Below are positions 61,163 through 63,301 of a DNA stretch of 64,000 nucleotides, piece after piece. Every line of letters starts with the position of its first letter. Positions within the stretch are counted from its first letter, which is position 1. Source of the DNA: Gammaproteobacteria bacterium (lineage in GTDB: Bacteria > Pseudomonadota > Gammaproteobacteria > HK1); the NCBI GenBank assembly GCA_022824305.1, contig JAJEAD010000039.1, forward strand, positions 62,001 through 126,000. Direction: 5' to 3'. A model generated the notes under the pieces. The model did no database searches. It had not been told where the DNA came from and saw only the letters and a program-made list of their open reading frames with translations. The translations under genes were made by a program, and so were the position numbers.

Positions 61163-61266
61163 AGATGGAGCGCGGCGACGCGGCCCGGCCGCGCGTCTCG
61201 CGCCTGCGCCCCTGCCGGCCGGAGGGCGGGCGGAAGCGCTCCGCTTGCGGGCCCGGGCCTGGCGCC

Positions 61267-61294
61267 TTGCAATCGCGGTGCCGGTCCTTATCAT
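61267..61294 (+). promoter_or_regulatory. Promoter upstream of the thrS leader
   Basis: A strong sigma-70-like pair is present: ttgcaa (61267-61272) and tatcat (61289-61294) with a 16-base spacer. Transcription would begin near 61301, giving about 25 untranslated bases before the leader peptide ATG at 61326 and about 175 before thrS. The preceding lapB stop is at 61162, so this promoter would make thrS an independent transcript. Confidence 0.6.
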
Positions 61295-61325
61295 GCGCGC
61301 GGTCATGAACCAAACCGGACAGAGG

Positions 61326-61379
61326 ATGAAGGCTACCGCCACGACCACTACGCGTCGCGGGGCCGCCGCGTCGGTCTGA
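61326..61379 (+). CDS. Threonine-rich leader peptide upstream of thrS
   Basis: A 17-codon frame reads MKATATTTTRRGAAASV and stops at 61379. Five of codons 4-9 are Thr (acc, acg, acc, act, acg). A GGA site lies six bases before the ATG, and a promoter ends about 30 bases upstream. Thr codon clusters followed by hairpins are the mark of attenuation leaders such as that of the E. coli thr operon; here the regulated gene is threonyl-tRNA synthetase. The same frame could open earlier at 61305 (MNQTGQRMKA), but that is too close to the predicted transcript start. Confidence 0.65.
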   Translation: MKATATTTTRRGAAASV

Positions 61380-61407
61380 TACTCCGGCGGCCCCCCTCGA
61401 GGCCGCC
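61359..61407 (+). promoter_or_regulatory. Competing hairpins of the thrS leader
   Basis: Segment 61359-61368 (ggggccgccg, inside the leader peptide) is perfectly complementary to 61385-61394 (cggcggcccc). Segment 61386-61392 can pair instead with 61401-61407 (ggccgcc). A ribosome paused on the Thr codons (61335-61352) would cover the first segment and favour the second pairing. How this pairing acts on the terminator at 61416-61448 is not clear from inspection. Confidence 0.5.
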
Positions 61408-61415
61408 CCTTCTCG

Positions 61416-61448
61416 AAACCCCGGAAGGCGACGGCCGACCGGGGTTTT
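61416..61448 (+). terminator. Intrinsic terminator in the thrS leader (attenuator)
   Basis: The arms aaaccccgg (61416-61424) and ccggggttt (61439-61447) form a 9-bp stem around a 14-base loop; the right arm runs into tttt. The terminator lies between the leader peptide and the thrS ATG at 61475, so it must be read through for thrS to be expressed from the upstream promoter. Confidence 0.7.
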
Positions 61449-61474
61449 CCTGTTTCGGGAAGGAGAGTCGAGCA

Positions 61475-63301
61475 ATGAGTGACGCACCAGACAGTCCCGC
61501 CGGCCCGCTCTATCGAATCCGGCACAGCCTCGCGCACGTGATGGCGCAGGCGGTGCTGGAGATGCGCGAGGGCTCCACTCTCGGCTTCGGCCCGCCCATC
61601 GCGGACGGCTTCTACTACGACTTCATCCTGAGCGAGCCGCTCACCGAGCGGGACTTCCCGGATCTCGAGCGGCGCATGCGCCGGATCCTCAAGAAGGGCC
61701 AGCGCTTCTACCGGGAAGAGGTGCCGGTGGACGAGGGCTACCGCCGCCTGGAAGAGATGGGGGAGCCCTACAAGCGCGAGTACGCAGAGGAGCTGGTCGG
61801 GAAGAAGGGCCTCGAATCCCTGACCTTCTACCGCAGCGGCCCCTTCCTCGACATGTGCGACGGCCCGCACGTCGACACCGCCAAGGAGATTCCGCGGGAT
61901 GCGTTCAGGCTGCGCAGCGTCGCCGGCGCCTACTGGCGAGGCGATGCGAAGAACGTGATGATGACGCGCGTCTACGCGTGGGCCTTCGCGGACAAGCAGG
62001 CGCTGGACGAGGCGGTGCGTGCATACGAGCTCGCCCAGGAACGAGATCACAAGAGGCTGGGCCGGGAGCTCGACCTCTTCACCTTCGACGACAGCGTGGG
62101 CCGCGGACTGCCCCTGTGGATGCCCAACGGGACGGTGATCCGCGACGAGATCGAGAAGCTGGCGGTGGAGCTCGAGTTCAGGGCCGGCTACCAGCGGGTC
62201 GCCACTCCCCACATCGCCAAGAGCAGCCTCTACGACCAGACCGGACACCTCGACCACTACCGGGACAGCATGTATCCCCCGATGGAGGTGGTGGAGGAGA
62301 CCCCGGAGGGGGAGACGGTGCGGGAAACCTACATGCTCAAGCCCATGAACTGTCCCCATCATCACAAGATCTTCGCCTCCCGGTTGCGCAGCTATCGCGA
62401 GCTTCCCCTGCGTCTCGCCGAGTACGGCGAGGTCTACCGGTGGGAGGCCTCCGGCGCGGTGTCCGGGCTGCTGCGCGTGCGCATGCTCTCCATGAACGAC
62501 GCGCACATCTACTGCACGGAGGCGCAGACGCAGGACGTGTTCCGCGAGGTCATTTCGCAGTACGACGAGGCCTACCGCATCCTGGGTCTCAGCAACTACT
62601 ACATCCGGTTCTCACGCTGGGACCCCGAAGACCCCAAGGGCCGGGAGAAGTACGTCGACGCGCCGGAAGACTGGCGACGCTCGGAGCGGATCATCGCCGA
62701 CCTGCTCGAAGAAATGGGCGTGGACTACGTCGACGCCCCGGGAGAGGCGGCCTTCTACGGCCCCAAGATCGACGTGCAGTTCCAGACCGTCACGGGTCGG
62801 GACGAGTCGCTTTCCACCGTGCAGCTCGATTTCGCGGTGCCCCCGCGCCTGGGCCTCTCCTACATCGGAGAGGACGGCGCGGAGCATGTCCCCTACTGCG
62901 TGCACCGCGCTCCCTTCAGCACCCACGAGCGATTCGTCGCGCTCCTGCTCGAGCACTTCGGGGGCGCATTCCCGACCTGGCTCGCACCGGTGCAGGTGCA
63001 GGTGATCACCGTCTCCGAGCACTTCCACGAGTACGCGACCGGCATCGTCTCCCGGCTGCGGGAAAAGTTCGTGCGCGCGGAGCTGGCATCGGAGAGCGAC
63101 ACGGTCTCGAAGAAGATCCGCGACGCCACCACGCGGAAGATCCCCAATCTCCTCGTCGTCGGCGAGCGGGAGAGCGCCGCGGGCACGGTGACCCTGCGCC
63201 GTCACGGCGTGAAGGCGCAGGCGACGATGCCGCTCGAGGTGTTCGAGGCGGCGCTCCTCGACACGATAGCGCGACGAACGCTCGAGTTCGTGATGCCCTG
63301 A
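61475..63301 (+). CDS. thrS: Threonyl-tRNA synthetase without TGS domain
   Basis: The 608-residue enzyme charges tRNA(Thr). It begins directly at the editing domain (YRIRHSLAHVMAQAV with the H-x3-H zinc/editing site) and lacks the 60-residue N-terminal TGS domain of E. coli ThrRS. The catalytic core has the zinc ligands in KPMNCPHHHKIF, SMNDAHIYC and CVHRAPFSTHERF, and the class II motifs 1 to 3; the anticodon-binding domain ends the protein (PTWLAPVQVQVITV). The variants MNCPHH and STHERF differ from the enteric MNCPGH and GSMERF and resemble short ThrRS forms of other phyla, so transfer is possible. infC and rplT do not follow it. RBS is AAGGAGAG. Confidence 0.95.
   Translation: MSDAPDSPAGPLYRIRHSLAHVMAQAVLEMREGSTLGFGPPIADGFYYDFILSEPLTERDFPDLERRMRRILKKGQRFYREEVPVDEGYRRLEEMGEPYKREYAEELVGKKGLESLTFYRSGPFLDMCDGPHVDTAKEIPRDAFRLRSVAGAYWRGDAKNVMMTRVYAWAFADKQALDEAVRAYELAQERDHKRLGRELDLFTFDDSVGRGLPLWMPNGTVIRDEIEKLAVELEFRAGYQRVATPHIAKSSLYDQTGHLDHYRDSMYPPMEVVEETPEGETVRETYMLKPMNCPHHHKIFASRLRSYRELPLRLAEYGEVYRWEASGAVSGLLRVRMLSMNDAHIYCTEAQTQDVFREVISQYDEAYRILGLSNYYIRFSRWDPEDPKGREKYVDAPEDWRRSERIIADLLEEMGVDYVDAPGEAAFYGPKIDVQFQTVTGRDESLSTVQLDFAVPPRLGLSYIGEDGAEHVPYCVHRAPFSTHERFVALLLEHFGGAFPTWLAPVQVQVITVSEHFHEYATGIVSRLREKFVRAELASESDTVSKKIRDATTRKIPNLLVVGERESAAGTVTLRRHGVKAQATMPLEVFEAALLDTIARRTLEFVMP

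Follow-up and report, generated by a model that had tools for sequence, protein, structure and literature searches.

Evidence for a probable leader-peptide transcription attenuator, likely leaderless and rich in Thr codons, upstream of thrS encoding an N1-less threonyl-tRNA synthetase in Gammaproteobacteria

We analyzed a 64,000-nucleotide stretch of gammaproteobacterial DNA, here called the window, in which the gene for threonyl-tRNA synthetase, thrS, is preceded by a promoter, a short Thr-rich frame, a set of mutually complementary RNA strands, and a terminator hairpin. We conclude, with a probability of roughly 85%, that these elements form a leader-peptide (ribosome-mediated) transcription attenuator that governs thrS according to how much charged tRNA(Thr) is available, and we infer from this its response to threonine. 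E. coli thrS is the textbook example of a synthetase that represses the mRNA encoding it. For the same enzyme, a gammaproteobacterial group very likely monitors charged tRNA(Thr) by means of a leader peptide, alongside a ThrRS that has no N1 domain. Loss of a protein domain would in this way be linked to a changed control logic. The case is carried by the context of the leader and by its conservation, not by the run of Thr codons alone.

A sigma70-type promoter, TTGCAA-16 nt-TATCAT, lies at positions 61267 to 61294 (this and the other features described below are on the forward strand). The sequence-only reading, an earlier annotation of this DNA, had proposed a ttgcaa/tatcat promoter, and indeed this is the sole sigma70-like match in 1.2 kb, where 0.1 would be expected. 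Most homologous loci have the promoter in the same form, TTGCA-16-TAT(C/G)AT. RNA synthesis typically starts about 7 nt past the -10 box, and the expected start in the window is at about 61300 to 61302. The leader frame runs from the ATG at 61305 through its stop codon at 61379 and has 24 codons, MNQTGQRMKATATTTTRRGAAASV. A 17-codon leader had been proposed earlier, MKATATTTTRRGAAASV, which begins at the internal ATG at 61326. Its five Thr in six codons (codons 4 and 6 to 9) are there, but the conserved start, the one to which the homologs align, is the ATG at 61305, and the leader is longer by that difference. The control codons, ACC GCC ACG ACC ACT ACG, occupy 61335 to 61352. A leaderless transcript is probable, given that just 10 nt separate the end of the -10 box from the leader ATG. 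This spacing is 5 to 10 nt in most homologs, as judged from loci whose promoter was located by automatic search.

Frames of 8 to 45 codons that reach five or more Thr within eight codons are rare in this DNA: in the whole 64 kb there is one on the forward strand, which is the leader, and one on the reverse strand. When the 250 nt ahead of thrS were put through 3,000 dinucleotide shuffles, no such Thr-rich frame arose. The Thr run in the leader is not due to chance. By itself the run is not diagnostic, because a genome-wide search for a Thr-run pattern returned 36 matches versus 58 for the reversed control, no better than the control.

The putative intrinsic terminator, at 61417 to 61448, is a CCCCGG/GGC-GCC/CCGGGG hairpin followed by TTTT. 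Its stem, CCCCGG/CCGGGG with the inner GGC/GCC, spans 61419 to 61444 with a folding energy of about -22 kcal/mol, and the four T are at 61445 to 61448. The earlier proposal of an intrinsic terminator with a T-run is thus borne out for the hairpin, but the U-tract is short, just four U and then CC. For this reason a stricter scan, which required five T in eight, found no terminator in the window leader region. Most homologs have the same hairpin with 4 to 7 T. The gene that follows, at 61475 to 63301, encodes 608 amino acids and matches the threonyl-tRNA synthetase model TIGR00418 well above cut-off; the terminator does precede thrS, as had been claimed. Rfam gave no relevant match, T-box and Thr_leader (RF00506) included, either at the gathering score over the window or at E<=5 over 61200 to 61500.

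Between the control codons and the terminator we recognized strands that could pair in alternative ways. Strand A (GGGGCCGCCG, 61359 to 61368) lies in the last leader codons, where a ribosome at the leader stop would cover it, and is complementary to strand B (CGGCGGCCCC, 61385 to 61394). B could take either A or C as its partner. Strand C (GGCCGCCCCTTC, 61401 to 61412) could in turn pair with B or, as an antiterminator, with strand D (GAAGGCGACGGCC, 61424 to 61436), the inner arm of the terminator. These pairings suggest how the switch may work. The RNA would begin a few bases before the ATG at 61305, and a ribosome would load at this 5′ end and translate the leader. When Thr-tRNA is ample, the ribosome would reach the leader stop and cover A; B would then pair with C, leaving D free to form the terminator, and transcription would end short of thrS. 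Under Thr-tRNA shortage, the ribosome would stall at the Thr codons upstream of A, so that A would pair with B and C would be freed. C would then pair with D, the terminator would not form, and thrS would be transcribed. We give this five-strand wiring about an even chance of being correct.

Conservation of the frame, its Thr codons, and the hairpins in relatives had been named beforehand, in the sequence-only reading, as the check on an attenuator at this site. Diverged Gammaproteobacteria with the N1-less ThrRS do have them ahead of the gene, and C and D covary. Of 67 gammaproteobacterial loci of the N1-less ThrRS type, a few of which are one genome fetched twice, 27 carry, ahead of the gene, a short frame in which five or more of eight codons encode Thr, compared to 0.2 expected from shuffles. 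With at least four Thr in eight codons, the count is 34 of 67 versus 1.8 in shuffles. Among 65 loci of canonical thrS, whose upstream regions were placed by tblastn starts, none has both a Thr frame and a terminator. The leaders of the closest relatives, for example MNLIGQTTATTTTTTTRGGAA and MDMRRQTTTTTTTRIGSASRAVMIA, as well as those of more distant ones, MNSQHAFLITTTTTSGWVA or MCDMRVMTTTTTTATSVAGSSRA, each stand ahead of a CCCCG...CGGGG hairpin that leads into a T-run. The control-codon stretch is richer in Thr in near relatives than in the window, and the Thr codons of these relatives vary mostly at third positions, which are synonymous changes. Many loci of the N1-less type are without the attenuator. 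There is no leader where the gene sits directly behind an aconitase-like gene (L040, L043, L044, L046, L047, and L057), and at these loci control was either lost or never gained. On the ThrRS tree, the presence of the attenuator needs about six gains or losses.

Outside this group, a thrS of Candidatus Peribacteraceae (L105), whose ThrRS is 48% identical, has the frame MQHLFVTTTTTTTTSF about 144 nt upstream, with eight Thr in a row. This frame stands close behind a -10-like box and is followed by complementary GGAAGGG/CCCTTCC stretches and a T-rich tract. Judging by these motifs, a Patescibacterium may have a Thr attenuator of independent origin.

How did the window acquire this arrangement? 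DNA homology to three loci of relatives (L031, L032, and L174) sets in at 61266, a single base ahead of the -35 box, and extends to 63231 to 63256 in these three, near the end of thrS; overall, the homologous block closes at about 63231 to 63290. Over this block the DNA is about 77 to 79% identical to that of the relatives. The window neighbors lapB and argA were not found in the fetched flanks of the three loci. By this alignment, promoter, leader, and gene share ancestry as one block. The window ThrRS is about 80% identical to that of donor-like genomes, rpsA is 63 to 66% identical, and in the ThrRS tree the window falls within the leader-bearing clade (support 100/94). The simplest reading of these comparisons is that promoter, leader, and thrS probably moved together by horizontal transfer.

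We considered that the window contig might be a mis-binned piece of another organism. This was ruled out, as rpsA on the contig is 82% identical to that of a genome from the same family, compared to 63 to 66% for donor-like genomes. A second, canonical ThrRS with a TGS domain is present in the same assembly, which has an estimated contamination of 4.46%. It is encoded on contig C61 of G000 (L111, 4961 to 5962) and is cut by the contig end. This thrS piece is 90% identical to, and syntenic with, that of G008, a genome from another genus of the same family, and infC is 72% identical to G008. The canonical thrS on C61 may belong to a contaminant contig or may be a native second copy. No thrS was found before infC of the window genome (contig C98, L114). 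At that locus infC, rplT, and pheST lie together, and the upstream region is read on the other strand.

We then turn to the pairing of the strands. Shuffle tests of C:D and B:C at each locus gave values below 0.05 in 6 of 26 loci, with combined p of 6e-5 and 4e-4; singly they are weak because the regions are GC-rich. In their place we used a test of cognate against swapped partners. Across 20 diverged loci, the cognate C:D pairing was stronger than the swapped one by a double-centered mean of -3.5 kcal/mol (z about -5.7, p<=1e-5, 0 of 100,000 permutations). The C and D sequences differ strongly between loci while their complementarity is kept, as in the pairs GGCCGCCCTTC:GAAGGCGACGGCC, GGGCGCTGCTTT:GAAGGCAGCGCCC, and GCGGTGGCC:GGTTACCGC. 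This is covariation for an antiterminator that is incompatible with the terminator. The same test gave p=0.003 for B:C and p=0.11, not significant, for A:B. About a dozen homologs carry a motif, GGG(Y)(Y)G(Y)C, by the leader stop, with A in the last codons or beside the stop, and C/T changes within it preserve G-C or G-U pairing to B.

The switch was also modeled by equilibrium folding, with the RNA cut just before the 3′ arm of the terminator, for each ribosome position. In the window this gave C:D at every position, with no switch. Among 23 homologs, the expected direction was clear in under half; L031, L034, L038, L075, L206, and L219 showed the expected change, others did not, and some (L182, L201, L212, and L214) showed the opposite one. 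In the window the gap between the leader stop and B is about 9 nt shorter than in relatives, so that a ribosome at this stop would overlap B in part. This leaves two possibilities: static folding may fail to capture the order of events during transcription, or control in the window genome may have loosened. The second possibility would make the window a decayed copy of an attenuator that functions in the donor lineages, with tight control lost after transfer and thrS expressed near-constitutively. Such decay would account for the fewer Thr codons, the shifted stop codon, the four U, and the lack of a switch in the equilibrium model, but it sits poorly with the five Thr codons, the promoter, and all stems being intact despite a DNA identity to relatives of about 77 to 79%. 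Moreover, static folding, which ignores co-transcriptional order, fails for some homologs too. We consider decay unlikely.

The weak U-tract in the window also raises the question of whether the leader peptide is real while control is translational or Rho-dependent, and not exerted by an intrinsic terminator; C might, for example, pair with the ribosome-binding site of thrS. In the minimum-energy fold of 61301 to 61480, CCUUCUCGAA does pair with UUCGGGAAGG beside the thrS start. However, most leader-bearing loci have kept the GC-rich hairpin and the T run, and the inner sequence of the hairpin covaries with C, which makes this explanation quite improbable. Positions 61408 to 61417 (CCTTCTCGAA) can pair with 61456 to 61465 (TTCGGGAAGG), by the ribosome-binding site of thrS, in read-through RNA. 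Based on this predicted pairing, a second, translational layer of control is possible.

The synthetase itself bears on the choice between leader control and the E. coli mode. The window ThrRS has the SAD (second additional), class II catalytic, and anticodon-binding domains, and no TGS/N1 domain (PF02824) was found in it. In 369 genomes of the window's class, every other listed ThrRS match is about 36 to 45% identical, i.e., of the canonical type. The close relatives, at 64 to 82% identity, come from Gammaproteobacteria and Pseudomonadales MAGs, and in 19 of 20 relative genomes the N1-less ThrRS is the sole full-length ThrRS found. The remaining genome, G104, which carries locus L041, is the only one in which a full-length canonical ThrRS, at 42% identity, is present as well. 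Since the window ThrRS has no N1 domain, control other than by ThrRS self-binding is plausible, with the leader taking the place of ThrRS binding its own mRNA. An E. coli-type mechanism, with ThrRS bound to a tRNA-like operator on the message that encodes it, is known for E. coli thrS (PMC3858243, PMC9976931), but given the missing domain, and with conserved upstream elements that are of the leader-peptide attenuator type, it is very unlikely here. Finally, the idea that the terminator belongs to the upstream lapB operon and that the Thr run is low-complexity sequence is hardly credible: lapB, on the same strand, does lie about 260 nt upstream of the terminator, and Thr-like codon runs do occur elsewhere in the genome (the 36 matches to one pattern, compared to 58 when it was reversed), but a promoter separates lapB from the terminator, this combination of leader and terminator precedes thrS in genomes with no lapB relative in the fetched flanks, and the shuffle tests, swap tests, and conservation all contradict it.

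Our favored reading, a leader-peptide attenuator of thrS, can be placed among known systems. The thrABC attenuator controls biosynthesis and also uses Ile codons. It has a Thr-rich leader peptide and a terminator, like the window, but differs in its biosynthetic target, and its family, RF00506, has no match in the window. Attenuators with leader peptides are established or predicted for several synthetase genes: pheST in gammaproteobacteria, trpS/leuS in Streptomyces, and hisS paralogs in Bacillus (PMC1262725, PMC2965389). Like the window, these have a short frame rich in cognate codons, competing hairpins, and usually an intrinsic terminator. Unlike them, the window system serves Thr and an N1-less thrS, and its proposed wiring would have five strands, with the control codons upstream of A and not inside it. 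Control by the E. coli thrS operator (PMC3858243, PMC9976931) is likewise feedback control of thrS, but it is protein-mediated translational repression, whereas we propose ribosome-mediated control of transcription.

Leaderless leader peptides are known from Sinorhizobium meliloti and Streptomyces (PMC7298713, PMC8079986). In S. meliloti, the trpL leader transcript starts at the start codon, and both the leader RNA and the peptide have additional activities in trans (PMC7298713). It shares leaderlessness with the window type and differs in having Trp codons and a biosynthetic gene. In Streptomyces lividans, a weak proposal has been made for a leaderless thrL before thrS, and this is, as in the window, a leaderless frame with Thr codons; however, its Thr count is just two (MKRVRPFLETTPGFVPAR), and it lacks a clear terminator (PMC8079986). 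The window type, by comparison, combines five to eight Thr with a terminator and shows conservation and covariation in many genomes. In the openly available literature, we found no paper that describes attenuation of thrS in Proteobacteria. The roughly thirty examples whose strands covary provide a test set for the evolution of attenuators and for leaderless leader peptides. We tentatively suggest, at somewhat less than even odds, a distinct attenuator type: a leaderless Thr leader with five alternating strands, in which the ribosome at the leader stop, not the stalled one, masks the first strand. This type would be tied to the N1-less ThrRS, would move from one gammaproteobacterial lineage to another as a unit spanning the -35 box through the end of the gene, and would replace self-repression of the E. 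coli type. That the window attenuator adds a thrS case to the known leader attenuators of synthetase genes is well supported, and its unusual wiring, if shown, would make it a variant among them.
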